30,152 bases of DNA, from positions 1 through 30,152 of the IMG/VR virus record IMGVR_UViG_3300023176_003427. One strand, 5' to 3'. The DNA comes from a virus. This document shows positions 1 through 22,663 of the stretch, piece after piece (the stretch's first letter is position 1; each line of letters opens with the position of its first letter). The position numbers and the translations under genes are program-made. A model generated the notes under the pieces. That model had not been told where the DNA came from and did no database searches. It saw nothing but the letters and a program-made list of their open reading frames with translations.

Positions 1-262
1 TGGACAACAGTTCATAGTCCTTGTCGGTCAAACCAAACAGCACTGGGTCTATACCCGCTTCTTCCAATTTCTTAAAGACCTCTTCTGCGTTCTCACTTGT
101 GATCACTATCCAACGTATGTCTTCTAATGTAAGAGGCATTGGGTCTGGCAGGTTCAACTTCTGTCTTGGTTCTTCAACAGTGAACAGTTTGATCCTCTTC
201 TCACCACCTATGCCACAACCGGTCAATAATAATATTAATGATATTGCTAAAAATTTATTCAT
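1..262 (-). CDS. o-spanin-like lipoprotein (Rz1-like), C-terminus outside window
   Basis: The reading frame starts at ATG 262-260 and is still open at base 1, giving 87 codons. The N-terminus is Met-Asn-Lys, a hydrophobic stretch, then the lipobox LLTGC with Cys16, so a lipid-anchored outer-membrane protein is expected. The start overlaps the stop of the coiled-coil membrane protein at 255-728 by 8 bp, and the M15 lysin follows at 740. The order lysin, Rz-like, overlapping Rz1-like is the usual Gram-negative phage lysis cassette, so an o-spanin role is inferred. It lacks the proline-rich, very short form of lambda Rz1, and the mature part looks like a small globular domain, so another phage lipoprotein is possible. 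Confidence 0.6.
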   Translation of the reverse strand, partial: MNKFLAISLILLLTGCGIGGEKRIKLFTVEEPRQKLNLPDPMPLTLEDIRWIVITSENAEEVFKKLEEAGIDPVLFGLTDKDYELLS

Positions 263-728
263 ATGGCACGTAATTCGGATTTGCTAGGCTTGGGCATTCC
301 GGGTTTATCTCCGAGTTCTTGGTTGCCTTCAGTTCCGCTTCGGTGTGTTTAGCGCCTGATGCCAATTCAACACACCTCTTGGCGTTCACGGAACCCTTGT
401 TCATTATTCGTTCGATGGCCGCTGTCCTGTCGATGGCCAGTTTGCCAAAATCTCTTTTCTTCTTGTTGAAACGTTTGTCTAGATCGTCTAGGTCCTTCTT
501 GAAAGTCATCACGAGATTGTTGAGTTTCTTGTTGCTTTCCATTATGGCCTCGAAGTCCACCTTCTGTTGTTCTATCAACTTTGTCTGTGCTTCTATGCCC
601 TTTTCCAGTTCTATCTGATTGGCCTTGAGTGTGGCGTTGTCCGCCCGCAGTTTCATTACATAAACGCCCGCACCGGCTATACCAGTGATCAGCATTATGG
701 CTATTGCCATCTTTATCGTTGAAAACAT
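255..728 (-). CDS. i-spanin-like (Rz-like) membrane protein with coiled coil
   Basis: 157 aa, start ATG 728. Residues about 7-27 form one hydrophobic N-terminal segment (signal anchor). Residues about 30-110 are highly charged with heptad-like spacing, as in a periplasmic coiled coil. The tail carries two cysteines (around 119 and 144). This topology matches inner-membrane spanins, which pair with an outer-membrane lipoprotein to fuse the membranes at lysis. The downstream overlapping lipoprotein and the upstream peptidoglycan peptidase support that role. A late-type element lies 8 nt before the ATG. There is no residue-level match to lambda Rz, so the call rests on topology and position. Confidence 0.62.
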   Translation of the reverse strand: MFSTIKMAIAIMLITGIAGAGVYVMKLRADNATLKANQIELEKGIEAQTKLIEQQKVDFEAIMESNKKLNNLVMTFKKDLDDLDKRFNKKKRDFGKLAIDRTAAIERIMNKGSVNAKRCVELASGAKHTEAELKATKNSEINPECPSLANPNYVPYE

Positions 729-735
729 AATGTAC

Positions 736-745
736 GTATTTATTG
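736..745 (-). promoter_or_regulatory. T4-late-like promoter element before the Rz-like gene
   Basis: The minus strand reads CAATAAATAC, one base from the T4 late octamer TATAAATA. The octamer ends 8 nt before the ATG at 728, leaving almost no leader and no Shine-Dalgarno. It overlaps the 3' end of the lysin gene. Confidence 0.55.
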
Positions 746-1201
746 GATAAGACCAGGCTTGTAAACGGTTTTACCGTTTTCCTTCATGGCAGTCAGAATA
801 GACTTTCTGTTACCTTCTGACTTGTATGACACGTGTACCCAGCCTGAATCAGGTATGCCCGGAGTGTAGAATTCCAATATCAATTGGTCGAAGTCGCAGT
901 TCTCGGATATCCATTTGGCAACATCATAATTTCCTGTGCCTGGACATTCTATGTCCACGGCCTCACCTTTACAGTGTTGCGATTTAGAAGAACCACCCAC
1001 TGCTTCGTTCAGTGCTGGTCCCCTGTATCCAGAGTTGATCACTGTAACGCCAAATTTGTCTCTGACCTTCTGCACGACATTTTCAAAAAGTGCTTTAGCA
1101 CTTTCAAGATGCTCCGCACCTGGTGTGTTGTCTAGGCCTTTCCTTGTGGCTGTCTGGCTTTTTGTGAATTCTGCTAGTGTGAAGTTTGTGCTTAATCTCA
1201 T
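740..1201 (-). CDS. M15-family peptidoglycan peptidase (endolysin)
   Basis: 153 aa from ATG 1201; a TTG at 1216 would add five residues but lies upstream of the late element. The zinc peptidase signature S-x-H-x-x-G-x-A-x-D is present as SQHCKGEAVD (zinc ligands His76 and Asp83). The last ligand is His123 in GWVHVS, and Arg60 lies in the SGYR substrate segment. This is the D-Ala-D-Ala/L-Ala-D-Glu peptidase family (M15) used by many phages as endolysin. There is no signal peptide or membrane anchor, so a holin would be needed for export. It is followed by the two spanin-like genes, completing a lysis cassette apart from a holin. Confidence 0.85.
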   Translation of the reverse strand: MRLSTNFTLAEFTKSQTATRKGLDNTPGAEHLESAKALFENVVQKVRDKFGVTVINSGYRGPALNEAVGGSSKSQHCKGEAVDIECPGTGNYDVAKWISENCDFDQLILEFYTPGIPDSGWVHVSYKSEGNRKSILTAMKENGKTVYKPGLIQ

Positions 1202-1204
1202 ACA

Positions 1205-1214
1205 CTTATTTATC
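1205..1214 (-). promoter_or_regulatory. T4-late-like promoter element before the lysin gene
   Basis: The minus strand reads GATAAATAAG, with the octamer GATAAATA ending 5 nt before the ATG at 1201. A transcript starting about 6 nt downstream of the octamer would begin at the start codon. No Shine-Dalgarno is visible. Confidence 0.55.
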
Positions 1215-1235
1215 AATAAGTGCGTATATTAAATA

Positions 1236-1709
1236 TTACCAACCTGCTTTGCTCATCAGTGCTGACTGGCCATCCTTGCTGAATATGAATCTGTCTTCCG
1301 TGGTCTTGGTGATCTGGTATGGACCAAAGTATTTGGTCAGGTACATGCATTCGCTCATCGCTGACTCGTCCAGTTTGAATGCCTTGATCTCGTTCATGAT
1401 CATGTTGGTTGATCCAAATGCGTGTAGTTCGAATTTCAATGTGTCCGCTTTCTGTTTCTTTATTTGCACCATGTTGTTGTCCAGTTTGAACTCCATCATC
1501 TGGAATCTGTCAAAGAAATCCTTTATCTCCCCCAGTTTCAGAGAATTGATCTTTTGATTGTATGCCTCTGGTGTCCTCGGTAGCACATCTGCTAGATTTT
1601 TAGCACTGGCCTCGAATGGCACGGTCCTCTTGTGATACGTGAACTCGAATGTATCAATGTTTGTGAGTTTCTTGAGATCGTCTAGGAACTTCCTGATGTG
1701 TTGGTCCAC
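1236..1709 (-). CDS. C-terminal part of a frameshifted conserved phage protein
   Basis: The nominal 157-aa ORF starts at GTG 1709, but its frame stays open upstream and reads like protein there: DGKHRVFIEFARVEAVD covers about 1755-1703 in this frame. The preceding ORF (1715-1975) covers the same bases in another frame and stops just before. Joining the two by a -1 shift near 1755-1772 gives one protein of about 245 aa, so this is most likely the C-terminal two thirds of a single gene. No catalytic motif is recognised. The position between the lysis cassette and another phage-type gene suggests a virion or assembly protein, which is only inference. Confidence 0.55.
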   Translation of the reverse strand: MDQHIRKFLDDLKKLTNIDTFEFTYHKRTVPFEASAKNLADVLPRTPEAYNQKINSLKLGEIKDFFDRFQMMEFKLDNNMVQIKKQKADTLKFELHAFGSTNMIMNEIKAFKLDESAMSECMYLTKYFGPYQITKTTEDRFIFSKDGQSALMSKAGW

Positions 1710-1714
1710 CGCTT

Positions 1715-1975
1715 CTACCCTCGCGAACTCAATGAAAACCCTGTGCTTGCCGTCTTCAGTGTGCCTGGCGTGGCATCTGCGTCCAACACTTCCTTGTATC
1801 CTGTCTCCGCGAAACGTTCCAGGTCCTTGGCAGGTGCCATTCCGTCAACCGTGAACGCCAAGACCATGATGTTCTTGTCGTCACCCATCTTGGATTTGAA
1901 TTGGTCAACTGAGAATCGTTTGCTAACGACTCCGTCCAGGTCTCCGGCCTTTAATCCTTCATTAACTAATGTCAT
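1715..1975 (-). CDS. N-terminal part of a frameshifted conserved phage protein
   Basis: 86 aa from ATG 1975, overlapping the end of the gene at 1962-2444 by 14 bp. The first 70 residues look well formed (SVDQFKSKMGDD, GYKEVLDADATPG). The sequence then degrades to a Ser/Thr/Gly-rich tail and stops at 1715, while the -1 frame takes over with sensible coding (see 1236-1709). No classical XXXYYYZ slippery heptamer in the right phase is seen at the crossover. A GGGTTTT run lies downstream but is out of phase. Alternatives are a real frameshift mutation, an assembly indel or an unusual programmed shift. Function unknown. Confidence 0.55.
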   Translation of the reverse strand: MTLVNEGLKAGDLDGVVSKRFSVDQFKSKMGDDKNIMVLAFTVDGMAPAKDLERFAETGYKEVLDADATPGTLKTASTGFSLSSRG

Positions 1976-2444
1976 CTAAACTACTTAAATCTCCAGACGC
2001 CTGTGCTTGTTCGTCCTGGCTCTCGATCTCGTCCTTGCCGTGTTTGAAATTGCCGATCAAATCTTTTGGCATCTTGATTTCTACAACCCATATGTCATGT
2101 GCGTCTATCTTACCCTTGGTTGTTCCTGGTCTGTAGTCCTCCGGTGATTTGATCTGTCTAGGTTTCATCAACTCGTCTCGTTTGTATGTGACTTTACAAC
2201 CTCTGTCTAGCAATCTCTTGCCTCCCGCAGGATCTGGCATCTTGTCTGCTGGCCACATGAAAGAACATGTGACGAAGTGTCTTGAATCCACCGGGCCTGA
2301 CAGTAATTCTCCATCCTCCCAGTTCTGGAACACGTACACATCTAGTTCGTCCACGACCCTCTCGAAGTCTTTGAGTATGCCCAAAGTAGGGCCTACTGCG
2401 TATAGCGATTGTACGTTTTTGATTATGTCTAAGACGTCATGCAT
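1962..2444 (-). CDS. Hypothetical phage protein, acidic C-terminus
   Basis: 160 aa from ATG 2444. The middle has a compact aromatic-rich domain (VYVFQNWEDGELLSGP, then SFMWPADKMPDP), and residues about 135-160 are acidic and Ser/Asp-rich, probably disordered. It is preceded by a late-type promoter element and followed by the split gene with a 14-bp overlap, so these two are probably co-transcribed late and may be virion or assembly proteins. I do not recognise a named family. No membrane segment, signal peptide or metal motif is seen. Confidence 0.7.
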   Translation of the reverse strand: MHDVLDIIKNVQSLYAVGPTLGILKDFERVVDELDVYVFQNWEDGELLSGPVDSRHFVTCSFMWPADKMPDPAGGKRLLDRGCKVTYKRDELMKPRQIKSPEDYRPGTTKGKIDAHDIWVVEIKMPKDLIGNFKHGKDEIESQDEQAQASGDLSSLDDIS

Positions 2445-2448
2445 AGTT

Positions 2449-2459
2449 CTTATTTATCC
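2449..2459 (-). promoter_or_regulatory. T4-late-like promoter element
   Basis: The minus strand reads GGATAAATAAG. The octamer GATAAATA ends 6 nt before the ATG at 2444, again leaving virtually no leader and no Shine-Dalgarno. Confidence 0.55.
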
Positions 2460-2484
2460 TAAATATCTGTGTTGTAAAATATGC

Positions 2485-2515
2485 ATACTTAATCTGGAAA
2501 TTTGATCTTAAGTAT
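2485..2515. repeat. 8-bp inverted repeat in the divergent intergenic region
   Basis: ATACTTAA at 2485-2492 is repeated inverted as TTAAGTAT at 2508-2515, with a 15-nt AT-rich spacer. It lies between the late element for the minus-strand gene and the first ATG of the plus-strand ORF pair. An operator or weak hairpin is possible, but arms this short and AT-rich can arise by chance. Confidence 0.3.
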
Positions 2516-2521
2516 TTGTAC

Positions 2522-2701
2522 ATGAGTCGACAAAGACACATCAAATCAAAATCAACCACAACCTACGAGGACCCTTATGTTATCATCGAACGGCCTACAA
2601 ATGCGACCTTTATTTCAACGCAAACTATGGAAACTAATGAGGAAGAAACGAGTGTACGACAAGCGTGTAAGTTTGTACATGCAGAATCAGAATTGGCTTA
2701 A
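2522..2701 (+). CDS. Possible small hypothetical protein, overlapping the next ORF
   Basis: 59 aa from ATG 2522, one of two overlapping plus-strand ORFs in a 350-bp gap between minus-strand genes. The first half is basic (MSRQRHIKSKS) and the second half acidic and Thr/Glu-rich. No Shine-Dalgarno is seen. It overlaps 2577-2804 in another frame for 125 bp, so at most one frame is likely to be the main product unless the genes truly overlap or a frameshift joins the N-terminus of this frame to the basic C-terminus of the other. No family recognised. Confidence 0.35.
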   Translation: MSRQRHIKSKSTTTYEDPYVIIERPTNATFISTQTMETNEEETSVRQACKFVHAESELA

Positions 2702-2804
2702 GATAAGGAAACAGAAGGACAGACGTAGACGTAGGATATTAATGAAAATATGGCGAGCCAGCCAATTGGCTATGCTAAAGCGTATGTACAATCAGGCTAT
2801 TTGA
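2577..2804 (+). CDS. Small, strongly basic hypothetical protein
   Basis: 75 aa from ATG 2577 with a Shine-Dalgarno GAGGA five bases upstream. Lys and Arg make up close to a third of residues, including a run of five Arg near residue 50, and Trp, Leu and Ile are regularly spaced as in an amphipathic helix. Codon choice (AAG, AGG, TAC, TTG) resembles the neighbouring genes more than the competing frame does. A nucleic-acid-binding role is suggested by charge only. It runs opposite to nearly all other genes and its end overlaps the convergent gene at 2797 by 8 bp. Confidence 0.5.
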   Translation: MLSSNGLQMRPLFQRKLWKLMRKKRVYDKRVSLYMQNQNWLKIRKQKDRRRRRILMKIWRASQLAMLKRMYNQAI

Positions 2805-3072
2805 CGAACTGATCCATCGCTTCAGCGTACCACTGTCGGTAGTGCTGTTCTATACGTTCGAATGGAATCTCGTCTCTCTGTGCGACGGGTATCCCAGGTA
2901 GTTCATTCTTGAGTACCTCTTTGTTAATTAGATCAAGTACCACTGTGTATTCCAGCATCTTGCCTGGACCGATCTTCTTCTTTGACAGTTCCACGAACTC
3001 GTCAAACTTCTTGTCTGGTTTTATTATGTACTTGACACAGAAGTATCTCTTCTTGTTGTGTTTGCTACCCAT
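2797..3072 (-). CDS. Hypothetical protein in the gp44 operon (gp62 position)
   Basis: 91 aa from ATG 3072, overlapping the end of gp44 by 8 bp, so translation is probably coupled. The N-terminus is basic (GSKHNKKRYF), followed by alternating beta-type segments and a helical C-terminus (HYRQWYAEAMDQF). In T4 the gene directly after 44 is 62, the small clamp-loader subunit. This product is half the T4 gp62 length and shows no motif I can match to it. A role with the clamp loader is therefore only positional inference. It could equally be an unrelated small conserved phage protein. Confidence 0.65.
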   Translation of the reverse strand: MGSKHNKKRYFCVKYIIKPDKKFDEFVELSKKKIGPGKMLEYTVVLDLINKEVLKNELPGIPVAQRDEIPFERIEQHYRQWYAEAMDQFVK

Positions 3073-3991
3073 TGTTTAACCTCGATAATTTTATCATGAC
3101 TGATGCAAGGTTTATTTCAGGATCTGCTACAAATGAGTGATCGACTAATCCCTGCTTGATAATTAGCACCGCTTTGTCCTGTGCGTCCTCATCTTTGGAT
3201 ATGATTTCCAAGTTGTCATACAGCCATCTGTATATCTCCTCACACTCCTCTGGTCTAGCCTGAGCACACACCAGTTTCCTTGCTTCTTGTATCCGGCCTT
3301 GCTTGAATAGATCCACCATCTGCAGTCTGTAGTCCTGTTGTCCTGAATCTCCCGATGCTGGTGGCATCAGTTTGCCGTCCCTAGCGTTCTGTTGTAACAT
3401 GTTGATACATTTCCTCATGTCAGGATAACTTGCCTTCACGTAGGTGTCCAGTATCTCTATGTCTGGTGTTATGCCTTCCTGTATCAATATCTCACACGCC
3501 CTCGCCGTGAACTCTGTCTTGTCTATGGTCTCCATGTGGAAGCCTTGGCATCTCGAATGCAGTGCTGGTATGACTCTGTTGGGATAGTTGCAGGTCAATA
3601 TGAATCTCGCTGATGTGTGATACATCTCCATCACACCACGCAACGCCGCTTGGCCATTTGGTGACATGTAGTCTGCCTCGTCCAGCAACACATACTTGTA
3701 TGCACCGAATGGCATGATCTGTACGAAGTTGTTGATCTTCTCACGCACAGTATCAACGGAGTTTTCCCTCGAAGCATTTATCTCTAAGATATCATAACTG
3801 CTGACATCCAGTTCTCCAAACAACACCTTCGCCAGTGTGGTCTTGCCCACTCCCGGTGCACCACTCAATAGCAAGTGTGGGATCGCTTTGTCGTCGATCC
3901 AAGATTGTATCTGTTGTCGTTGTGCTTCGTCTCTGACCACGTACTCTTTCAGAGTCTTAGGTCTGTATTTTTCTACCCATAAATCTTTCAT
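3065..3991 (-). CDS. gp44: Sliding-clamp loader large subunit, gp44/RFC-small type AAA+ ATPase
   Basis: 308 aa. Walker A GAPGVGKTT is at residues 44-52 and Walker B VLLDEAD at 101-107. Sensor 1 lies in ILTCNYPNRV (131-140) and the RFC-type SRC motif at 146-148 supplies the arginine finger in trans. The N-terminus WVEKYRPKTL is the RFC-box start. The C-terminal part is helical, as in the collar domain. The complex would load the phage sliding clamp on primer-template DNA. ATG 3991 follows a sigma70-type promoter by 7 nt, consistent with early expression. The downstream 91-aa gene overlaps it. Clamp (gp45) and polymerase (gp43) genes are not in this window. Confidence 0.95.
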   Translation of the reverse strand: MKDLWVEKYRPKTLKEYVVRDEAQRQQIQSWIDDKAIPHLLLSGAPGVGKTTLAKVLFGELDVSSYDILEINASRENSVDTVREKINNFVQIMPFGAYKYVLLDEADYMSPNGQAALRGVMEMYHTSARFILTCNYPNRVIPALHSRCQGFHMETIDKTEFTARACEILIQEGITPDIEILDTYVKASYPDMRKCINMLQQNARDGKLMPPASGDSGQQDYRLQMVDLFKQGRIQEARKLVCAQARPEECEEIYRWLYDNLEIISKDEDAQDKAVLIIKQGLVDHSFVADPEINLASVMIKLSRLNNG

Positions 3992-3996
3992 ATGTG

Positions 3997-5040
3997 TTAT
4001 ATTACAGAAGTTTCCTTCGCTTGTCTATATAATTGTTCGGTTGCCATGTTTTTTCCTTTGGCCTCCACCTGTATGTCGAAGTTTTCTGAGAATGACAGTG
4101 CCCAGTCATTTACCTTCCTGTTTGGTAATAAGTCCGAGTGTGCCCTAAGTTTCTGTTTCTTGCAACCTCTTTCCAGTAGATCCTTAATGTTGTGCATCTC
4201 TGTGTGTGTTCGGTCTCCAAGTCCAGCAACCGCCAGGTGTTCATCTCTGGAATACGAGTAGTGCATACTGGGTCTCACACCACGCCATGAGTCTATGACT
4301 CTCTTGACTCGATCATCTGTTGCTTCAATGTATTCCTCATCTCTGATCCAGTGATGGTGTATGTCCAGAACCAATGCTAGGTGTTTCTCCAGCATCAACG
4401 ACTGTTCCAGTCCATGGCTCATCTCGTCATTTTCTATTGTGATCAGGTTCCTTGCCTCCGGTGATAGCCTGGGCAATGCTTTTATTATGCCGTCTGGTCC
4501 TTGCTTGCCTGAGATGTGTACGTTTATCTTGCAACCGTCTTGGAAACTTTTGCCAAACCCCATCCATCTTGCCATGTCCGCATGGTATTCGAATTCTTCT
4601 ATGCTACGTTCAACAATGTCAGGAGTCGCACTTGACAGCACACAGAATTGTCCTGGATGGAAACTTACTTTTACATCTAGTTTCCTAGACATCTCACCGA
4701 CCGGTGCGAATAAATTTTCTAAATGACTTTGTATGTCGGGTTGTTGCCACCATGTCTTCCAATCTTTCTCTGTGTAGCCTTGCAACATCTCGCTACCCAA
4801 CCTCACCATCCTACGTTCTGGTGGCAGTGTGCCCACACGTTCGATCAATCTACGTGCGGCTGTGGTGTTGTGGGTCATGATGTCCCACTGTCTCTGCTCT
4901 GCTTCGTCCTTGTGTTCACGGAGCCAACGCATGGTTGTTGATCTGCCGTTGAGATCCCTGTCTTTTGCGTTCACTTTCATGCCACCGAACTCACTGGTGT
5001 CATTGAGCCATTTGCAACAGAAACCAAAACGTTGTATCAT
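3997..5040 (-). CDS. uvsE: UV-damage endonuclease, UvdE/UvsE family
   Basis: 347 aa from ATG 5040. UvdE signatures are in order: SFHPGQF (His128, Gln131), His153, NVHISG (His175), ITIENDE (Glu203), DIHHHW (Asp226, His228-230) and MHYSYSR (His260). These are the metal ligands of the TIM-barrel enzyme that nicks DNA 5' of pyrimidine dimers and other lesions. All expected ligands appear intact. The length is a little above that of the bacterial enzymes, with C-terminal residues from about 290 extending beyond the barrel. It has its own sigma70-type promoter and lies just upstream of gp44. In a surface-ocean phage it would repair UV damage without light. Confidence 0.93.
   Translation of the reverse strand: MIQRFGFCCKWLNDTSEFGGMKVNAKDRDLNGRSTTMRWLREHKDEAEQRQWDIMTHNTTAARRLIERVGTLPPERRMVRLGSEMLQGYTEKDWKTWWQQPDIQSHLENLFAPVGEMSRKLDVKVSFHPGQFCVLSSATPDIVERSIEEFEYHADMARWMGFGKSFQDGCKINVHISGKQGPDGIIKALPRLSPEARNLITIENDEMSHGLEQSLMLEKHLALVLDIHHHWIRDEEYIEATDDRVKRVIDSWRGVRPSMHYSYSRDEHLAVAGLGDRTHTEMHNIKDLLERGCKKQKLRAHSDLLPNRKVNDWALSFSENFDIQVEAKGKNMATEQLYRQAKETSVI
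3999..4027 (-). promoter_or_regulatory. Sigma70-type promoter for gp44
   Basis: TAGACA (4027-4022), a 17-nt spacer and TAATAT (4004-3999) on the minus strand, overlapping the 3' end of the UV endonuclease gene. The gp44 ATG is 7 nt below the -10, where transcription should start. Confidence 0.55.
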
Positions 5041-5046
5041 GTGTTA

Positions 5047-5074
5047 ATTATAGCAGGTATATGTGATATGTCTA
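5047..5074 (-). promoter_or_regulatory. Sigma70-type promoter for the UV endonuclease
   Basis: TAGACA (5074-5069), a 16-nt spacer and TATAAT (5052-5047). The ATG at 5040 lies 6 nt after the -10, at the expected transcription start. Confidence 0.65.
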
Positions 5075-5461
5075 GTCCAGCAGTGTTTCCATCATGGCCC
5101 AGTGTCCGATGATGTCACTGCAATGCAGTTGGAATCCGTATTCTCTGTCTATGTCACGCAAGATCTTGTTGGCCTTGGCCATGCTCAGTCCTGCATTGGC
5201 TGGTAATTGTAATGCGTTGATGGTTTTCTTTTTCAAACCCTTTGCGGCCTGTACCCTGTGCCAGCCGTCTGTCAACAGATAGTATCCTGAATCTTTTATT
5301 GGTGTCACTAGTATTGGATCCCATGCACCGTCCTTTTTAAGTTTGTTGATCCATGTCCTCTTCTCTTTGTTTAAAGGACGTTCAACGCCTAGACCCATCT
5401 CTGCCATGGTCACTAACTTGCTTAATTCAACTTTTACTTTTTTGATCTTAATCAGTTTCAT
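5072..5461 (-). CDS. ParB/sulfiredoxin-like domain protein
   Basis: 129 aa from ATG 5461. Residues about 1-90 follow the ParB N-terminal (ParB/Srx) pattern: a basic lead-in, a stretch like DPILVTPI (48-55), then LLTDGWHRVQAAKGL (62-76), equivalent to the ParB box G-E-R-R-x-R-A region with His and Arg at the phosphate-binding site. Phage and plasmid members bind nucleotides or DNA and some are nucleases; which applies here cannot be read from sequence. The C-terminal helices have His and Trp near the end (SDIIGHWAMMETL). It overlaps the upstream zinc-finger gene by 14 bp and is probably translated with it. Confidence 0.6.
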   Translation of the reverse strand: MKLIKIKKVKVELSKLVTMAEMGLGVERPLNKEKRTWINKLKKDGAWDPILVTPIKDSGYYLLTDGWHRVQAAKGLKKKTINALQLPANAGLSMAKANKILRDIDREYGFQLHCSDIIGHWAMMETLLD

Positions 5462-5693
5462 AGTCTATCGAATTGATGTCTGTTATGATCTGCCATTCCG
5501 GACCATTGGGCAATGGTTTCCTTTGTGGATAACCGTTCACGTCTGACATTTCCCTGTACTTGTTTGCACAGGCAGGACCACAGAATGGCCTGATTATACG
5601 TTTGTCGTATTTGGTGTCGTGTAGGCTGTCGTACCAGTATATTGCGTTTAAGAATTGTTTGTTGCAGACGTAACAGATGTGTAGTTTAATCAT
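5448..5693 (-). CDS. Small protein with a four-cysteine zinc-binding pattern
   Basis: 81 aa from ATG 5693, overlapping the GroES-like gene by 8 bp and the ParB-like gene by 14 bp. Cysteines occur as ICYVC (Cys7, Cys10) and FCGPACANKY (Cys38, Cys42), a C-x2-C/C-x3-C arrangement typical of a small treble-clef zinc finger. The rest is hydrophilic with no catalytic signature. Many phages carry such proteins, with roles in nucleic-acid or protein binding. No specific partner can be inferred beyond co-transcription with the neighbours. Confidence 0.65.
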   Translation of the reverse strand: MIKLHICYVCNKQFLNAIYWYDSLHDTKYDKRIIRPFCGPACANKYREMSDVNGYPQRKPLPNGPEWQIITDINSIDYETD

Positions 5694-6129
5694 TGCCAGG
5701 TAACGAAGTCATCTGACTCATGCCACCTGTGTTCACGTAGCCGGCCTTGGTCCTGTTTTGCTCGGGTTCTTCGTCTGACACTAATAAGATGTCATTCTCG
5801 TCAATCATTCGTACTTCTAGTTCCACGCCCTCTTTCTTGACCTTGAATCCTCTGCTCCATCTTCCGTGTGACACCAATACCCATTGTCCCACTGTGACGT
5901 CTTCCTGCTGATCACCGATGGCGTAAACTTTGCCCCATCTAGGATGTATGCCCGATTCTGATCCGTCGTCGTCTGTGAGTATTATTCCACCTTTAGTCTT
6001 TGTCTCACCGAAGTGCATGTCTGAAACTAGCACTCTCTTCTTGAGAGGTGTGATGTCGTAGTCAACGGTGTATTCCTTTCCACCGTGTGATCCAAATCCT
6101 TTTGCTTGTAAGTCTTCTAGTTGTCCCAT
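5686..6129 (-). CDS. GroES-like co-chaperonin (T4 gp31-like)
   Basis: 147 aa from ATG 6129. Residues about 26-118 follow the Cpn10 fold in order: ITPLKKRVLVSD, then a candidate GroEL-binding mobile loop at about 41-59 (GETKTKGGIILTDDDGSES). Next come WGKVYAIGDQ, VTVGQWVLV and the closing strand ENDILLVSDE. The GG-I-L loop core and the G-K-V-x-A-x-G segment are characteristic of GroES. T4 gp31 replaces host GroES for capsid-protein folding, so a similar role is inferred. Residues after 120 are an extra Gly/Asn-rich tail. Expression from its own sigma70-type promoter fits the need before capsid assembly. Confidence 0.75.
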   Translation of the reverse strand: MGQLEDLQAKGFGSHGGKEYTVDYDITPLKKRVLVSDMHFGETKTKGGIILTDDDGSESGIHPRWGKVYAIGDQQEDVTVGQWVLVSHGRWSRGFKVKKEGVELEVRMIDENDILLVSDEEPEQNRTKAGYVNTGGMSQMTSLPGND

Positions 6130-6138
6130 TATAGGATT

Positions 6139-6167
6139 ATTATATAAGATTTATTCTAATCCGTCAA
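6139..6167 (-). promoter_or_regulatory. Sigma70-type promoter for the GroES-like gene
   Basis: TTGACG (6167-6162), a 17-nt spacer and TATAAT (6144-6139), overlapping the 3' end of the preceding gene. The ATG at 6129 is 9 nt below the -10, leaving a leader of about two or three bases. Confidence 0.7.
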
Positions 6168-6600
6168 GAGCCGCATCTATGCCTTTTTTGGCCGTGCTCT
6201 CTGTTTTTGGCTTGAAAGTTTCAACTGGTTTTGTAACCGTCTCTACCTTAGGCTCCACCTTCTTGGGCTGTGGTGCTACAGTTTTCTTTGGTGCTGGTTT
6301 GGCCGCCACTGGTGTCATCTTCTGCACTGTCTTCACTGGCTCCGTCTTGGGCGCCGGCATTGGTTTGCCTCTGCTTGGTGTGTCACTGACCATGCCTTTT
6401 GGCTGTTCGTAATACTTCTTTATAATCTGCTCTTTTGGTGTCACAACTTGTCCACCTGCTCCCAACACATCTCCCCTGGCGTTGACATTCATGTTACCAA
6501 CCGCTGGAGTAGATTCATTGGCCGCTCTAAGTTTTTCTATATCCACCATACGTCCCTGCATGGTCCTATACATTCTTTTTCTGGGTGCTCTTGCTACCAT
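6151..6600 (-). CDS. Hypothetical phage protein with Lys/Pro/Thr-rich tail
   Basis: 149 aa from ATG 6600, with Shine-Dalgarno GGAGTTT upstream. Residues 1-70 are basic and fairly ordered (RKRMYRTMQGRMVDIEKL, then NVNARGDVLGAGG and IIKKYYEQ). Residues 75-149 are Pro/Lys/Thr/Val-rich low complexity, likely an extended linker, ending in a short helix (GIDAALDGLE). The globular start looks like a conserved structural or scaffold-associated phage protein, but I cannot name a family. The gene lies between the DnaE-like stub and the GroES-like gene. Confidence 0.65.
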   Translation of the reverse strand: MVARAPRKRMYRTMQGRMVDIEKLRAANESTPAVGNMNVNARGDVLGAGGQVVTPKEQIIKKYYEQPKGMVSDTPSRGKPMPAPKTEPVKTVQKMTPVAAKPAPKKTVAPQPKKVEPKVETVTKPVETFKPKTESTAKKGIDAALDGLE

Positions 6601-6627
6601 ATCGTTAAACTCCTATATTATTACTTA

Positions 6628-7149
6628 TCATCTCAAGAATTCGGTGATGTTCAAATTGTACAGCATGGGATTTATCTTGTGTACTCCTATCAAGAACAAA
6701 CAAAAACTTGCTACACTACTACCTCTACCTACACCCCACACCATGTTGTTGGCTCTTAGTGTGTCTACAAAGTATATGAGGAATTGTAACACACGTATGA
6801 AATTTTTCTTTTCAAACAGATCATATTCCATCTGAACCCTCATTTTTTCTTCATCATTCTGGCATTTGTCCAACAACCATTCCAAAACATTTATTTGGTA
6901 ATACTTGTCAGGCATGTGCCAGTTGTCACAGTTCTGTTTATCAAACTCAGCGGGAGATGACCTTTTTGGCACTGTGCTTATCACAGGCAGGTCGATGCCC
7001 AACTCCTTGAGGCTCTCTGAATACTTGTCTATGTCATTGAGATAAAGTTTTGATATGTCGAAGTCTGGATCCGTGTACAGCAATTCGATGACATCCTCTT
7101 CCGAGAATATCACATCACCATGATCATTTATCTTTGTCTTTGCCGCCAT
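6628..7149 (-). CDS. DnaE-like (DNA polymerase III alpha) fragment protein without catalytic aspartates
   Basis: 173 aa from ATG 7149, overlapping the upstream gene by 26 bp. Residues about 104-173 align by eye with the segment of bacterial DnaE entering the palm: RVQMEYDLFEKK, FLIYFVDTL, then WGVGRGSSVASFCLFLIG (138-155) and INPMLYNLNITEFL, matching DnaE GPGRGS-GSLVAY-L-I---DP--Y-L-FERFLN. In DnaE the next residues are the P-D-x-D-x-D catalytic motif; here the protein stops at Arg173, before it. The N-terminal 100 residues show no PHP histidines. A polymerase activity is therefore excluded; a binding or regulatory role is possible. T4-type phages replicate with gp43. Confidence 0.7.
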   Translation of the reverse strand: MAAKTKINDHGDVIFSEEDVIELLYTDPDFDISKLYLNDIDKYSESLKELGIDLPVISTVPKRSSPAEFDKQNCDNWHMPDKYYQINVLEWLLDKCQNDEEKMRVQMEYDLFEKKNFIRVLQFLIYFVDTLRANNMVWGVGRGSSVASFCLFLIGVHKINPMLYNLNITEFLR

Positions 7150-7759
7150 CTAGTACCTTTGGTTGGAACTCGAATATTTTAGCATGGTACTCGTGCTTCT
7201 TGTCAACAGGAATCTCTTGATTGTTCCAACTGAAGTGTCCTGTGTAGATGCCTTTGTCAAGTTCTTGATCATATGTTGCCGTGTCCGCCCTCAACCACCA
7301 TGGATCAAATTTGCTGAACTTCGCTGAGAACCAATCGGGCCTATCTAACAGTATAAGCTCTTTGCTGTCTTTGTCAACCGTGTAGGTAATACCATCTCCC
7401 TGCCACGAACTCAGTTCTATGTGATTGATCACGATCTTGCTGTTCAGTATGCTGTTGGCCTTGCAGAAGCAAACGGCCGCCATGATCTGGTCATAGGGTG
7501 GTTTTGGCAATTCAATGAATCTGTTTGTTGTACTTTTTTTCAAAGTGTGGTAAAGTGGCTCGTCCCTCCACGTGGTTATCGTGTTGGCGAACACCTGTTC
7601 GAAGAGATTCTTCAGTCTCTCGAAATAATCTGTCTGCTCCTTGAGACTTGCCGTGTGTGGTGTGAGAGATATGTTCAGTTTGTATTCATTAGCGAACAGT
7701 TCTCCGTCAACAATGATGATACTTTTAAATTTTGTCTTCCAGGTGAATGTGTTTGACAT
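7124..7759 (-). CDS. Hypothetical phage protein
   Basis: 211 aa from ATG 7759 (one codon below a TTG). A TAAATA hexamer lies 6 nt before the ATG, as in other genes here. The protein is rich in aromatic residues with short beta-type segments; a stretch near the C-terminus (KFDPWWLRADTATYDQELD) is distinctive. No catalytic or metal-binding pattern, membrane segment or signal peptide is seen. It overlaps the DnaE-like gene by 26 bp, so the two probably form one unit. Function unknown. Confidence 0.65.
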   Translation of the reverse strand: MSNTFTWKTKFKSIIIVDGELFANEYKLNISLTPHTASLKEQTDYFERLKNLFEQVFANTITTWRDEPLYHTLKKSTTNRFIELPKPPYDQIMAAVCFCKANSILNSKIVINHIELSSWQGDGITYTVDKDSKELILLDRPDWFSAKFSKFDPWWLRADTATYDQELDKGIYTGHFSWNNQEIPVDKKHEYHAKIFEFQPKVLDGGKDKDK

Positions 7760-7771
7760 CAAAACTATTTA

Positions 7772-8023
7772 CTAGTCTATGTTGACCAGGTCGCCTAGGT
7801 CTGGTTCGTTCCTCAATTTCTTATTGTTCTTGTGCCATTCCTCGATACGTCTCTGTCTGATGGCATCTTGATATGTCCTTAATGCTTGTTGGAGATTGAA
7901 CAATAATTCCGGATTCCTGCCACGTCTCGCGATTGCCACCTTCCTGTTCAATTCTTTGATACGTTTGGAAATGTCCTCTTCTGACATGTTGCCTATCTCT
8001 TCTTGTAATGGATGGAAGTACAT
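7772..8023 (-). CDS. Small helical hypothetical protein
   Basis: 83 aa from ATG 8023 with a strong Shine-Dalgarno (AAGGAG, 5 nt spacing). Residues 10-75 are almost entirely helical and charged (ISKRIKELNRKVAIARRG, then LLFNLQQALRTYQDAIRQRR), suggesting a coiled coil or helical hairpin. The last ten residues are acidic. It follows the fibre genes by 15 bp. The small size and position suggest an assembly or chaperone-like phage protein, but no family is recognised. Confidence 0.65.
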   Translation of the reverse strand: MYFHPLQEEIGNMSEEDISKRIKELNRKVAIARRGRNPELLFNLQQALRTYQDAIRQRRIEEWHKNNKKLRNEPDLGDLVNID

Positions 8024-8038
8024 CGGACTCCTTGATTA

Positions 8039-8602
8039 TTATGCGTACTGTTTGCCCAGTTGGTGCATCAATACTGTTGTGCCACCGTCTGGTGACATGA
8101 ATTCGAATAGTGCCCGGCCCAACCCTATCGTTACTTGGTCCGAGGTTCCGTCACTGCCTGTGACATTGTCGGCCTTGATCACAGCACTGGGGAAAGTCAA
8201 AATACCTGTTGATGTCGGTGCCACGGTTATGTCTAAAATTATCCTGCCCAACGCTCCTGTTGGGAAGTTTGAAAATGCGAAAGTGGTATCCGCCGTGATG
8301 GTCAATGTTTGGTAATGACCATTATCATGGTTCAACGTCACTGCACCACTAGACACTGATCCGTGTGTGTAAACAGTTTCCGATGTGTTTTTTAATTTCG
8401 CTTTTATAACCTCGTTGTCATTGAAGTCATTGGATGAATTCAAACTGGCCTTGTTGTTTTGTAGGTCAGTTATCTCTGTGGCGGCCGTGGTAAAATTGTT
8501 TTTAATTTCGGAAAAATTGTCCCTAAAGCCCTGTGAACTGTTGTCTTGCCCTGCTTTTGGATATGTTCCGTCTATGTTTCCTGGTATTATGTTACTCGCC
8601 AT
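8039..8602 (-). CDS. Short tail-fibre-type structural protein
   Basis: 187 aa from ATG 8602, which overlaps the stop of the 837-aa gene (TAATG). The N-terminus (YPKAGQDNSSQGFRDNFSEI, then KNNF) is a variant of the anchoring motif GTGD-LR-A--KIN-NF-ELY found in four other proteins of the block. A short helical linker follows. The C-terminal 100 residues (TITADTTFAFSNFPTGALG, then an Ile/Thr-rich beta region) match the capping domain at the end of the 742-aa fibre. It may be a short fibre, or an adaptor using the same attachment site. A late element and Shine-Dalgarno (AAAGGAA) lie upstream within the preceding gene. Confidence 0.75.
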   Translation of the reverse strand: MASNIIPGNIDGTYPKAGQDNSSQGFRDNFSEIKNNFTTAATEITDLQNNKASLNSSNDFNDNEVIKAKLKNTSETVYTHGSVSSGAVTLNHDNGHYQTLTITADTTFAFSNFPTGALGRIILDITVAPTSTGILTFPSAVIKADNVTGSDGTSDQVTIGLGRALFEFMSPDGGTTVLMHQLGKQYA

Positions 8603-11115
8603 TACTGTATTCCTTTGTCTCTAAATTTTAGGTATTTATCGTTACTTCTCTCCACTTTAATAATTGTGCCAGCCTGTGGTGTCTCTTTGGTAAAAGTTAT
8701 TGTTGTTTTCTTTGTGGCGGTGTTGTGTGACAACGTGATCCCTAGTTCGTGATCAGCAGAACGCAGTGTTCCGTCCGCTGTCAGATAGGTAGGTTTGATA
8801 TTGTTGTCTGCTGTCACTCCTTGCCCCACAAACACTGTGTTTGTTCCTTCCTTGATCAACACGTCCTCTTCGTGTAGCAGTTCATCAACAACGAAACTGT
8901 CCGTTGTTCCGTCCGCTGTGAATGTATCTGTTGCGACCTTGCTTTTGCTCACCACATATCTATCTATAGTGAATGCTATGTTTTTGAAATTCAATGCCTT
9001 GTCTTCTATCCTCTTTTTGACCAATGCTGATGTTCCAGGTTTGCAGTAACAGATGGGCACCGCGGTCACATATCCCAGTGGCGCCAGGTCGCCTGCCTGT
9101 GTGGTCTTCATCCATAGGGGTAGGTAGTCCCATTCTTTGTGTCCCAGGCTCTTCATCCTTGACCTCATGTTGGCAACCGCGTTGGGATATACCGTTTCCA
9201 TGAATCCCAGATCCGCACTCAATTGGTTGGCGTATCTCACCTTTGAACCTGATGTGCTGAACGACAGCCCTCCGTCAGTGGTAACTTCATAATCTATGTA
9301 ATCTGCTGTTGCATTCATGGTTGACGCCCTTGGTCCTAGTAAAGGTTTCGAAACAACATCACGTAAATTAATGGAACTGGAAACAGATTGTCCATCCTTG
9401 TTGACCATGTTGTCCTTGATCTCTACATAGACCACTTCGTATTTTGTGGCGGTTCCTTCTTTGGCCACTGCTGTCTTTATGTCTCCAAAGTACAGGGTCT
9501 TGGGAGCATGGTTCTGTTCCATCTGCTGTTGGAAAGCAGTCAACGTCTGTGCTTCAAGTCCCGACATCATCAGCATGTCAGGCTTTAATTTCATACCAAA
9601 ATTACTATCCTCGGGTCTGAATATGTTGTCTACAGAATTGATGTTTGGATCCTGTGCTATGTTGTAGAATATGTTCTGATCTATAAAGGATGTTGCGTGA
9701 CCAGACATGTTGCCATACTCGATCTGTGTGTACGGTATGTCAAGATTGATTGTGAACTCTTTTGAAGTTGCCGCTGATTGGTATTGATCACTCACCGTAA
9801 CCGTGAACGTGTAGGTTCTCGTGGAATCTGTGAAATCACTAGGATCTATCGTGCCTATCAGGTTTCCCTGTTCCGACAAAGTGATACCAGTTGGCAAAGA
9901 TCCCGCTGTGACTGAATAACTGAGCACACGATTGGTGTCCTCTGCTACTGCTTCTATTGACAACAGGCTTGGCACGTCGGCTTTCAATGTGCCCACTAAG
10001 GTTGGCGTAGTGAATGCTATTCCTATGTCGATCTCTCCAATCACTTTCATGGTGAATTCTTGGTCTGTGAACACGTTGATTCCCGTTGCCACTACCCTGT
10101 TTGCTCTGACAGTGAATGTGTAAGTTGTCTCCACCGCTGACTGTCTGGCCAACTGTCCGTAGAGTTCTCCGGAGTCAACATCTATGGAAACACCCGCGGG
10201 CAGTGAACCTGCCTGTATAGAATATTCTAGATCTCCCTGTAGTGGATCGAAGTCTTCAACATCGATTTTCACCACAAATGCGTTGTCGTGCCTGAACGTG
10301 CCGAGGTCTGATCCTGTCCTGAAAACAGGTCTCCTGTTGGCACTGAGGTCCATGGTCAGCGGTGAGTTTTGTATTTCTGTTGCGTCGATTGTGATCGCTG
10401 TGTTGGAGACTCTCCAGAAGTCTGCGGAATAAACAAATATGTTGTTGTTCTGTTCTACGAAACTGGTACCGTCTGAAACTCGCACTATGAAATCAAAATT
10501 CTTGCTGATACTTTTTGATGTTATTGTTCTGTCAAATGTACCATCCCATTGATCCTCTGGAGCACCATCATCGTATCCACCACGTTCTCCATATCTTTGA
10601 TCGTCCGTTAGTTGGACTATGCCTGATATCAGGCCTGACTTGCTCATGGTCACTCCTGGTGGTAGCGATCCCTGAACAATCTCATACACAAGTGTTTGTC
10701 CCGCCCTGGTGTCTGAATCAGTTGCCTGCATCTGCAGTGACACACTGGAACCATCGATTACCCAATATAATCCAACGCTGGTACTGTCATCAAGTTGTAG
10801 TTGTCCAGAAGCAGTCGTGAAAGTTGGAGTGTCCGCACCTTGTACGTCTAGTGAAAAAGTCCTGTCTGTGATAGCGGTACCGGCCGTGGCTCGCACGACG
10901 AAGGTGTAAAGAGTTCTTTTGGCAACCTCAGCCGGAGTACCTGTCAAGAGCCCGTCCGTTGTTACCTGCATTCCTGCGGGTAGGCTCCCTGCTATCACGG
11001 AGTAAGTGATGGCCGTTGAATCGCTGGTGTTGGCCTCCAATTGGAGACTGTACGCGACTTGCTCGTCTATGGTTGCAATTTTACCTGCAGTGGTAGACCA
11101 CACTGGTGTTGCCAT
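8602..11115 (-). CDS. Large virion adhesin with four immunoglobulin-like (He_PIG) repeats
   Basis: 837 aa from ATG 11115 with Shine-Dalgarno AAGGAGT. Four repeats carry the He_PIG core S-L-P-x-G-(x)n-G-x-L-x-G at residues about 44, 150, 304 and 406, each with a preceding Y-S-(I/V)-x-A-G strand and a following Y-T-F-T-V-R type strand. Such Ig/cadherin-like modules bind carbohydrates or act as spacers on virions. Residues 470-837 are unique, with a YLPLWMKT segment, a CYC pair and several beta segments, probably the trimerising or virion-attachment part. It is likely a fibre or baseplate-decorating protein. It is driven by a late element at 11134-11146. Confidence 0.8.
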   Translation of the reverse strand: MATPVWSTTAGKIATIDEQVAYSLQLEANTSDSTAITYSVIAGSLPAGMQVTTDGLLTGTPAEVAKRTLYTFVVRATAGTAITDRTFSLDVQGADTPTFTTASGQLQLDDSTSVGLYWVIDGSSVSLQMQATDSDTRAGQTLVYEIVQGSLPPGVTMSKSGLISGIVQLTDDQRYGERGGYDDGAPEDQWDGTFDRTITSKSISKNFDFIVRVSDGTSFVEQNNNIFVYSADFWRVSNTAITIDATEIQNSPLTMDLSANRRPVFRTGSDLGTFRHDNAFVVKIDVEDFDPLQGDLEYSIQAGSLPAGVSIDVDSGELYGQLARQSAVETTYTFTVRANRVVATGINVFTDQEFTMKVIGEIDIGIAFTTPTLVGTLKADVPSLLSIEAVAEDTNRVLSYSVTAGSLPTGITLSEQGNLIGTIDPSDFTDSTRTYTFTVTVSDQYQSAATSKEFTINLDIPYTQIEYGNMSGHATSFIDQNIFYNIAQDPNINSVDNIFRPEDSNFGMKLKPDMLMMSGLEAQTLTAFQQQMEQNHAPKTLYFGDIKTAVAKEGTATKYEVVYVEIKDNMVNKDGQSVSSSINLRDVVSKPLLGPRASTMNATADYIDYEVTTDGGLSFSTSGSKVRYANQLSADLGFMETVYPNAVANMRSRMKSLGHKEWDYLPLWMKTTQAGDLAPLGYVTAVPICYCKPGTSALVKKRIEDKALNFKNIAFTIDRYVVSKSKVATDTFTADGTTDSFVVDELLHEEDVLIKEGTNTVFVGQGVTADNNIKPTYLTADGTLRSADHELGITLSHNTATKKTTITFTKETPQAGTIIKVERSNDKYLKFRDKGIQ
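8631..8641 (-). promoter_or_regulatory. T4-late-like promoter element inside the adhesin 3' end
   Basis: The minus strand reads CGATAAATACC. It leaves a 30-nt leader with Shine-Dalgarno AAAGGAA before the ATG at 8602. It would allow the short fibre gene to be transcribed apart from the large adhesin. Confidence 0.5.
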
Positions 11116-11133
11116 TAATCTTACTCCTTACAC

Positions 11134-11146
11134 GGGTATTTATTGG
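11134..11146 (-). promoter_or_regulatory. T4-late-like promoter element for the large adhesin
   Basis: The minus strand reads CCAATAAATACCC, overlapping the stop of the small upstream gene rather than sitting in a free intergenic gap. The octamer is 21 nt from the ATG and a good Shine-Dalgarno (AAGGAGT) fills the leader. Confidence 0.6.
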
Positions 11147-11149
11147 CGA

Positions 11150-11308
11150 TTACCGGCTATTATTCTGTGTACGAATCCAGTGTTCCAGGTGCTGTTGCAG
11201 TCCCTCACGTGTGATCTTGTCCTGCTCACGTCGTATGGCCTCCTCCAAGCGTTTGATCTCAGAATGTGCTGACTTGCGCCTGTTATGGTCGTTCCTGTGT
11301 TTCCTCAT
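11150..11308 (-). CDS. Small charged helical protein between two fibre genes
   Basis: 52 aa from ATG 11308. A purine-rich Shine-Dalgarno-like stretch (AAGAAGGGA) ends 2 nt before the ATG. The sequence starts MRKHRNDHNRRK and continues as one charged helix with Glu/Arg/Gln (SEIKRLEEAIRREQDK), ending in NNSR. The late element of the adhesin lies at its 3' end. Codon use fits the neighbours and the gene fills the gap between 11339 and 11115 exactly. It is probably a small fibre-associated or chaperone-like protein; no family recognised. It is below usual ORF-calling length. Confidence 0.6.
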   Translation of the reverse strand: MRKHRNDHNRRKSAHSEIKRLEEAIRREQDKITREGLQQHLEHWIRTQNNSR

Positions 11309-11338
11309 TGTCCCTTCTTAAGGATGTGTTATTGGCTA

Positions 11339-12766
11339 TTAAGATTCGTCGTAGAAGGGAATCACCCTCATTGTGCCGGCGATCTTGATCTTGATGTAGC
11401 CAGTCGGTGTGCCCGGCAGTGCCGATGCACCTCCCGCCGATCCCACAGTTGATTGTGTGGCCGTGTTAAGATCCACAACTCCAGTACCCTGTGTGCTGAT
11501 AGAGATGTCACCATCTGACGTATCATTCTGTAAGGCGTCTGCCCTTACTGTAGTGGCCTCCATCAACGTGAAGTTGGCTTCTGTGGCGGTTAATTTCACG
11601 TTCGTTCCGCCAACCGCAACGTTCTGTCCTGCGGCAGGTGATAGTGTGATACCGCCTGATGTCGATGACAGTGTGTTGCCGTCCAATCTCAAGTTGTCAA
11701 CATTAAGTTGTCCTGTTGTGGTCTGTGTTCCTGCGTGAGTGATTGGTCCTGTTAGCACAATGGCTCCTGTTCCAGCCGGATCGATCGTTATGTCTCCGTT
11801 TGTGTCAGAAGTGATAGTACCGTCTGCGATAATATTCAAGTCACCAACTGCAAAAGTTCCTGTGGTCAATGATCCCGACACAGTTGTGTTACCTGTTGTG
11901 GCAACGTCCGCCGTGTTCAATGTTCCTACCACCGTTGTGTTTGGTATGATTCTGACCTGTCCTGTTCCCGATGCGTCCAGTTCTAGGTTCGCATTCGAGG
12001 CGTTGGTAGTGATTGTGTTGTCGGCCATTGAAATACTATCAACGGTCACAGTTCCTGTCATCGTGGCCGCGTTGATTGTAGGTGCTGTTAGAACTTTATT
12101 TGTTAAAGTTTGAGATCCTGTGAGTGTGGCAACCGTTCCGTCAATCGCCGTTGTGACTGTGTTTCCCGTCGCACTTGTGGTTATACCAGTGCCTCCAGAG
12201 AACTGCATCACCTCTGAATCGAGATCAATCGAATTGGTAGTCGAATCGTCTGCTGTGAAATCTAGATCTGCGGCTGTTACCTGTGCATCAACATATGCTT
12301 TGATAGATTGTTGCGTCGCCAAAGCAGTTGCCGAATCTGATCCCATGGCATCTTCGTCTAGTATACCTGTTACAGTTGCACCCGACGCCAGTGCCAATGA
12401 GGTGCTCAAAGTTGTGGCACCTGTGATCGTTGCCGCACCCGCCACATTCAACGTGCCTGTTGTCTGTATGTTCTCTGCTATTGTGATCTGTGTCGAATCG
12501 TCAGAACTCATTGTTGTGCCAACAAATTTCATCGCACCCAGTTTGATGCTACCTGTGCCATTTGGAGTGACAGTGATGTCACCGTTGGTCACACCTGTTG
12601 TTATTGCAAAGTTGTTTACGTCTAGGTTCGCGTCCAGTGTGTTGATGTCGTTGTCTGTACCGTAAAGTTCCACGAAGTTGTCGTTGATCTTGTCAAATGC
12701 TGTTCTTAGTGGATCACCCGTGCCGTCGTTAGCACTTGATCCTATGTTGATGTTTTGTCTAGCCAT
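11339..12766 (-). CDS. Tail-fibre protein with repetitive beta stalk (475 aa)
   Basis: Start ATG 12766. The N-terminal anchoring motif is NDGTGDPLRTAFDKINDNF followed by VELY. The body has repeats of the type N-A-x-L-x-L-x-x-x-G-T-G-x-(V/I)-x-(I/L), each giving about one turn of a fibrous beta structure, and one copy of the marine-phage motif ATALATQQSIKAYVDAQ. The C-terminus (GYIKIKIAGTMRVIPFYD) differs from the other fibres and is the likely receptor-binding or trimerising end. It is transcribed from a late element with a 28-nt leader and Shine-Dalgarno AAAGGAT. Confidence 0.85.
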   Translation of the reverse strand: MARQNINIGSSANDGTGDPLRTAFDKINDNFVELYGTDNDINTLDANLDVNNFAITTGVTNGDITVTPNGTGSIKLGAMKFVGTTMSSDDSTQITIAENIQTTGTLNVAGAATITGATTLSTSLALASGATVTGILDEDAMGSDSATALATQQSIKAYVDAQVTAADLDFTADDSTTNSIDLDSEVMQFSGGTGITTSATGNTVTTAIDGTVATLTGSQTLTNKVLTAPTINAATMTGTVTVDSISMADNTITTNASNANLELDASGTGQVRIIPNTTVVGTLNTADVATTGNTTVSGSLTTGTFAVGDLNIIADGTITSDTNGDITIDPAGTGAIVLTGPITHAGTQTTTGQLNVDNLRLDGNTLSSTSGGITLSPAAGQNVAVGGTNVKLTATEANFTLMEATTVRADALQNDTSDGDISISTQGTGVVDLNTATQSTVGSAGGASALPGTPTGYIKIKIAGTMRVIPFYDES

Positions 12767-12791
12767 ACTTTATGTTAATCCTTTTTGTTAT

Positions 12792-12804
12792 GGGTATTTA
12801 TTTG
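12792..12804 (-). promoter_or_regulatory. T4-late-like promoter element for the 475-aa fibre
   Basis: The minus strand reads CAAATAAATACCC. The octamer is 28 nt from the ATG at 12766, and AAAGGAT lies in the leader. Confidence 0.6.
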
Positions 12805-12829
12805 AAATTCTATAAACCTAATGTAATTA

Positions 12830-14212
12830 TTATAGGTCTATTATGACTCTCTGGAATTTGAACACTGTGCTGTCGTTGGTGATGTTGGTGGCCAGCAATC
12901 TCACATTACCGTCGTCTATGTCTGCTGTGAACGTGCATAATGGATCCGTGTAAGAACCGGTGTTTCCAAACACGGTAACGTAGGCCTCCGTGGTGCTGTC
13001 AGCACTTGGGCCGTGTACCAGCGTGGCTTCCACCATCTCGAACCTGCTGTTGGTGGCGTCTGATATGGAGATGTAGTACTTGGCACTCCTGTACGAAGCA
13101 CTAGACCAACTGTCTATGACGGTAGTGGCAGATGTTGCCACAGTTGCGGTGTTGTCACCGATCTCCGAGTGGTTCAATGTGGATGCACTTGAGATGGTCA
13201 CAAATCCTATGTTGCCTGCACCGTCCGTCTTCAGCACTTGGTCCGCTGAACCGTCTGACGTTGGGAAACTGAGACCGCTGATGGACACCGTTCCCGTGCC
13301 ATTGCCTGAAAGTTCCAGGTCAGCGTTGGAGGCATTTGACGAGATCGTGTTGTCTGTGATGGTCACACCGTCGATGGTCATACCGCTAGTGGTTGTCAAT
13401 GTGGTGAATGTTGCCGCCACCGGCGTGGTCGCACCTATCACGGTGTTGTCGATGGCACCGCTGTTGATGTCCACCTTGGCCATCACCACGGATCCTGATC
13501 CGCTCGCTGATAGCACCAGGTCTGAGTTGGATTGCGTGGTCGTTATATTGTTGTCCGTGATATTGACATTAGAATCTATGGTCAGGTTGCTGACGTTCAC
13601 TGTGCCGGTACCTCCCGGTGTGAGGTTCAGGTCAGCGTTTGAACTGGTTGCTATTGTGTTGTCGTTGAATGTGATGTTGTCTATTGTGGTTGTCCCGACC
13701 AAACTCGTTGCTCCTGTCACGTTCAACGTAGATAGTGTTGTCAATGCTGAAGGAACTGCCAGAGTTGAACTTAGGTTTGTTGCACCTGAAAGTGTTGCCG
13801 CACCAGAAACATTTATTGTGCCATCTACGATCAATCCATCGTTGATGTTGATGGCAGTAGAGTCATCGGAACTCAATGTCGTGCCTCTGAATTTCACTGC
13901 ACCAAACACCACAGAACCGGTGCCGCTTGGTAGTAAATTTATGTTTTCATTTGATCTTGTGCCTTCGATAGTGTTATCGTTGATCCTGATTGCTGGGAAG
14001 GACACGGCACCTGTGCCTGAAGGCTTGAATACCAGGTCCTCGTTTGATCTAGTGGCGGATATCTCATTGCCACTGAAACTTAGATCACCGCCTGTGAGTG
14101 GAGATAGGTACAGTTCCGTGAACATGTCGTTCACTTTCTGCATGGCGGATCTCAGAGTATCACCTGTGCCGTCGTTTGCGTTTTCACCTACATTTAAAGT
14201 CTGTTGTGCCAT
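12830..14212 (-). CDS. Tail-fibre protein, paralogue of its neighbour (460 aa)
   Basis: Start ATG 14212, immediately after the stop of the 458-aa fibre gene (1-bp gap). The anchoring motif NDGTGDTLRSAMQKVNDMF plus TELY is followed by a repetitive stalk. The stalk contains a segment almost identical to the neighbour (SSNADLNLTPGGTG followed by a VNVSNLTIDS strand). The C-terminal domain, residues about 365-460 (RSAKYYISISDAT, FEMVEATLVHG, DDGNVRLLATNI), is a beta domain shared with the neighbour but more diverged. The pair arose by tandem duplication. No separate promoter is evident, so it is probably co-transcribed. Confidence 0.85.
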   Translation of the reverse strand: MAQQTLNVGENANDGTGDTLRSAMQKVNDMFTELYLSPLTGGDLSFSGNEISATRSNEDLVFKPSGTGAVSFPAIRINDNTIEGTRSNENINLLPSGTGSVVFGAVKFRGTTLSSDDSTAININDGLIVDGTINVSGAATLSGATNLSSTLAVPSALTTLSTLNVTGATSLVGTTTIDNITFNDNTIATSSNADLNLTPGGTGTVNVSNLTIDSNVNITDNNITTTQSNSDLVLSASGSGSVVMAKVDINSGAIDNTVIGATTPVAATFTTLTTTSGMTIDGVTITDNTISSNASNADLELSGNGTGTVSISGLSFPTSDGSADQVLKTDGAGNIGFVTISSASTLNHSEIGDNTATVATSATTVIDSWSSASYRSAKYYISISDATNSRFEMVEATLVHGPSADSTTEAYVTVFGNTGSYTDPLCTFTADIDDGNVRLLATNITNDSTVFKFQRVIIDL

Positions 14213-14213
14213 G

Positions 14214-15590: not shown

Positions 15591-15598
15591 AATTTACT

Positions 15599-15609
15599 GG
15601 TATTTATGG
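15599..15609 (-). promoter_or_regulatory. T4-late-like promoter element for the 458-aa fibre
   Basis: The minus strand reads CCATAAATACC, directly after the stop codon of the lectin-like gene. The octamer ends 10 nt before the ATG at 15590, giving a leader of only a few bases. Confidence 0.6.
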
Positions 15610-16443: not shown

Positions 16444-16452
16444 CCAGTCCCC

Positions 16453-18681: not shown

Positions 18682-18692
18682 AATCTGATACT

Positions 18693-18709: not shown

Positions 18710-18712
18710 AAT

Positions 18713-20064: not shown

Positions 20065-20078
20065 ACTAGTAATTATCC

Positions 20079-22635: not shown

Positions 22636-22663
22636 CGTTTCTCCTTGCGTTGATGACTTGCAG

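Follow-up and report, generated by a model that had tools for sequence, protein, structure and literature searches.

In the window, by which we mean the whole stretch of 30,152 nucleotides analysed here (positions 1 to 30,152 of IMG/VR record IMGVR_UViG_3300023176_003427), two overlapping open reading frames on the minus strand encode the two halves of one conserved protein, annotated in its family as a virion structural protein. The interruption between them is almost certainly a one-base deletion private to this record, be it an error or a real mutation, because all of the 39 orthologous contigs found (39/39) carry the gene intact and because the missing base is the sole indel in 20.3 kb of comparison with a near-identical contig, G001.

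One virion protein gene in two frames

The upstream frame (frame 0; 1715-1975, minus strand) starts with an ATG at 1975 and remains open until a TAG at 1717-1715, giving an ORF of 86 amino acids; a further 14 stops occur in this frame between 1717 and 1236. In the -1 frame the nearest stop upstream is at 1847-1845, and none follows before a TAA at 1238-1236; the two frames overlap by about 130 bases. The C-terminal half, of about 173 native residues, occupies 1236-1766 (minus strand) in this -1 frame. Using hmmscan, we observed that residues 3-69 of the N-terminal part match positions 5-70 of the PHROG 13138 profile (E = 3e-08), and that the C-terminal part matches positions 75-222 of its 227 (E = 3.7e-09). 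Since both halves fit the same profile in order, the proposal of an earlier note on this DNA, that one conserved protein is encoded in two frames offset by -1, is borne out at the level of sequence. By the same profile matches, the gene is to be counted as a member of PHROG 13138 ('virion structural protein', head and packaging), with the copy in the window broken; the product name is an annotation.

That note had placed the frame switch at about 1772. The switch is real, but the alignment puts it some 15 bases away, at about 1757-1758, on the boundary between codons 73 and 74. In an alignment of the window with 14 loci (A1) the gap falls on a two-base doublet with no long homopolymer, in agreement with the earlier remark that no homopolymer explains the break, and a single-base gap lies at the same place relative to four loci (L041, L042, L043 and L044) that are 85-90% identical to the window there. 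Among 28 aligned relatives, a set that omits 11 of the 39 as truncated, as apparent near-duplicates or, for L082, as not included, T69-P70-G71 and D75-G76-K77-H78 are invariant and residues 73 and 74 are variable. By comparison with unbroken relatives, residues 1-73 of the N-terminal ORF are native and the final 13 are out of frame. In this record a single virion structural protein gene is interrupted by the loss of one base at the codon 73/74 boundary, past which frame 0 reads 13 wrong residues and then a stop.

We modelled an unbroken relative with AlphaFold2 (mean pLDDT 85.3, pTM 0.64). Predicted strands 63-68 and 77-85 flank the break and form one alpha/beta region together with helices 46-59 and 90-105. 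As the break lies inside a single predicted region, the model makes a natural two-chain arrangement unlikely.

Intact relatives and a near-identical contig

Relatives were searched for in viral_contigs with the C-terminal part as query and with no selection on the upstream frame. This search returned 38 related contigs of 55-100% identity, and the junction is read through in one frame at all 38 loci, which carry 30 distinct DNA sequences there; one of the loci (L004) starts inside the gene, with 28 upstream codons present, and another (L039) is cut in the C-terminal part. Scanning with a pattern for the intact peptide yielded 32 stretches, 30 of them on contigs already known, one unrelated to the broken gene (L060) and one on a new orthologue with a full-length ORF (L082), which brings the unbroken orthologous contigs to 39 of 39. 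A single unbroken frame, as expected for PHROG 13138, is thus present in every one of these relatives and lacking in the window, and the comparison with full-length homologues recommended by the earlier note finds them continuous across the junction. A degenerate pattern for the one-base-short form had two matches in viral_contigs, both unrelated to the gene, and the exact 30-mer of the window had none, in a scan that may omit the window's own record. The short form is absent from every other orthologue found in viral_contigs.

The earlier note had named relatives with the same two separate ORFs and no fused form as the finding that would speak against a single protein. The two-frame arrangement occurs in 0 of the 39 orthologous contigs, and we reject the two-ORF form as a conserved arrangement. 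The window could nevertheless hold two separate genes, the second translated by termination-reinitiation at a GTG (1709-1707) that closely follows the TAG at 1717-1715 and has GAGGG among the bases preceding it. We regard this as very unlikely, given that the break splits one predicted alpha/beta region, that no relative has the two-ORF form and that the GTG at 1709 is the codon of valine 90, which is nearly invariant in the unbroken relatives.

The contig that bears most directly on a private deletion is G001 (the contig of L002, one of the 38; 23,294 bases), which is about 99.9% identical to window positions 1-20315 (99.87% over 1-17021 and 100% over 17022-20315). The two differ by 22 substitutions and by a single indel, which is the base lost at about 1757, and within the gene itself the deletion is accompanied by no substitution; the intact gene in the nearest relative has 246 codons. 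Twenty-one of the 22 substitutions sit in three of five checked ORFs and all of these are synonymous, while the remaining one, at position 8, lies outside the checked ORFs. Against this background of synonymous changes, a broken conserved gene stands out.

We found no second broken gene in the window, comparing positions 1-20315 with G001 and 18986-30090 with a further contig, L090, although a break common to the window and G001 within 1-18985 would escape the G001 comparison. Nineteen ORFs were chosen from 18986-30090 for the comparison with L090, and every one of them could be aligned to it without a change of frame along 92-100% of the ORF. Further gaps show up when the window is aligned pairwise to less close relatives; most of these compensate one another, have a length divisible by three or fall where the match is poor. 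We judged 18986-30090 by the protein alignments with L090 and not by individual gaps in the DNA of distant relatives. A generally error-prone record was considered and rejected, no other break having been found.

Origin of the deletion and the case for recoding

We infer that the deletion is probably an error of assembly or sequencing. Less probably, it is a genuine loss-of-function deletion that some of the virus population's genomes carry, in which case the two polypeptides would be non-functional. Single-base deletions do occur naturally, and the site is a doublet and not a long homopolymer. Moreover, no other break has turned up in the window, and a record of such quality elsewhere, not prone to errors in general, allows for a real mutation. 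On the other hand, the gene is conserved in one frame in all 39 contigs, and relative to G001 no substitution in it accompanies the deletion. In addition, an assembly consensus should show whichever allele is in the majority, and a virion gene that no longer works would not be expected to be that allele. An error and a rare defective genome would alike make the finding an ordinary one.

Assembled viral metagenomes with frameshift errors, as described in one study (PMC6487183), share with the window a gene that is whole apart from a one-base indel. In that study's mock community, the number of indels per 100 kbp stayed below 2 when short-read assemblies were scaffolded with long reads, came to 22.78 for long-read assemblies polished with short reads, and averaged 474 for assemblies made from long reads alone. 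The one indel in about 30 kb of the window falls between the rates of <2 and 22.78 in that study (PMC6487183), with the proviso that the sequencing method of the record may differ. With many windows under scrutiny, one stray indel is unsurprising.

The earlier note had left open whether the break was a mutation, an indel or unconventional recoding. The 39 unbroken orthologues and the single G001 indel support a private indel, and recoding fares badly, as the relatives need none and an in-phase heptamer is lacking. In a recoded gene, ribosomes would shift to the -1 frame within the overlap, or slip past the site, to give a fused protein. Programmed -1 frameshifting is known from phage tail-assembly genes, in which two overlapping frames are offset by -1. 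The window has two such frames, overlapping by some 130 bases, and its two halves are colinear with the full-length family. Unlike those genes, however, it has no in-phase heptamer, its two-frame form is not conserved and one predicted alpha/beta region draws on both of its frames. We found no X XXY YYZ slippery heptamer in the zero frame within the overlap, as the earlier note had also reported; the sole XXXYYYZ heptamer in that zone, GGGTTTT at 1741-1735, does not fit the phase. Furthermore, 39 of 39 relatives encode the protein without any shift, the short form is found in no other orthologue, and close relatives would be expected to share a recoding site, which the near-identical G001 does not have. 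Recoding is therefore exceedingly improbable, and we give as little credence to a deletion that is real and fixed in the strain with motif-less recoding at the doublet restoring the virion protein. We see no sign that the short sequence serves to produce, by design, a protein in which the halves are joined. If true, recoding would mean a motif-less frameshift in a virion gene, and the evidence speaks against it. We stress that recoding can be mimicked by a one-base gap peculiar to one assembled phage record, and that comparison to a near-identical contig reveals the cause.

Family, neighbourhood and other genes of the window

A tblastn search with a full-length relative as query (E up to 0.1) matched 38 phage records, several of which repeat one phage between GenBank and RefSeq. 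Each match is one piece, running from query residue 8 or earlier to at least residue 105 and spanning the junction. Jumbo phages, with records above 280 kb, account for 37 of the 38, and the remaining record measures 85.7 kb. The six annotated members that we checked are each a single CDS of 225-245 aa, only the window record being interrupted: RaK2 ORF169 (225 aa), the Phosso orthologue (245 aa), Atu_ph07 gp305 (240 aa), PA5oct gp188 (233 aa), CBB_335 (227 aa) and the MIJ3 orthologue (233 aa), with lengths computed from coordinates. Judged by sequence, RaK2 ORF169, CBB_335, Atu_ph07 gp305 and PA5oct gp188 are likely members of PHROG 13138. Among annotated phages the C-terminal part had no close match and the N-terminal part one weak match (E = 1e-5). 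For the gene, the matches in Pfam all fell short of the curated cut-off, and a PDB sequence search gave one match (E = 0.01). In structure searches with the unbroken relative, the Atu_ph07 protein came first among viral models (E = 4.4e-18, TM-score 0.55), and the PDB gave no match at E <= 0.001. The main text of the CBB paper (PMC5259590) gives 7 unique peptides for CBB_334, the neighbour on the upstream side, and has no occurrence of CBB_335; neither 'ORF169' nor 'gp169' occurs in the main text of the RaK2 paper.

Directly upstream of the broken gene lies a virion structural protein gene (1962-2444, minus strand; PHROG 12928, E = 1.5e-24), whose end overlaps the start of the broken gene. The presence of such a gene directly upstream accords with the neighbourhood of PHROG 13138: in RaK2, Atu_ph07, PA5oct, CBB and MIJ3 the gene in this place is annotated as a (virion) structural protein, its likeness to 1962-2444 being one of annotation, and in Phosso it is a hypothetical protein. 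Further upstream in the window is a gp44-like sliding-clamp loader gene (3065-3991, minus strand; PHROG 168, E = 5.3e-78), and a clamp loader gene is similarly placed in RaK2 and CBB, the only two of these phages in which it is in view. Their order of clamp loader, hypothetical protein and two (virion) structural proteins resembles window positions 1236-3991, with the middle genes compared by annotation, and the shared order of clamp loader and structural genes in the window, RaK2 and CBB perhaps represents an old linkage.

Elsewhere in the window, repeated tail-fibre-type genes at 11339-12766, 12830-14212 and 16453-18780 all match PHROG 677, and 14214-15590 is listed alongside them as a putative further copy; the G001 counterparts of 13401-13743 and 14785-15127 each also align to the position of the other, at about 68%. 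Twenty of the 22 substitutions relative to G001 cluster at 11354-11378 and 16519-16702, close to the 3' ends of two ORFs of tail-fibre type, and leave the amino acids unaltered. These two tracts look recombination-derived, and for neither was there a match elsewhere in the window at E <= 0.001.

Two short overlapping genes on the plus strand (27432-27755 and 27739-28080) resemble each other at 26-32% in cross-matches and are both conserved in L090, while most genes around them are on the minus strand. An ORF at 18713-18991 (plus strand), in a gap between minus-strand genes, has a cysteine pattern that by eye suggests a putative small zinc-ribbon protein. The genes at 18986-19759 and 23746-24384 resemble each other in cross-matches, and the former weakly matches a PHROG that carries the annotation sialyltransferase. 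By eye, we take 19729-20226 to be a putative IscA-type iron-sulfur protein, 22186-22635 presumably a QueD-type enzyme and 24720-25121 presumably a HIT-family protein, and 26011-27252 matches radical SAM PHROGs.
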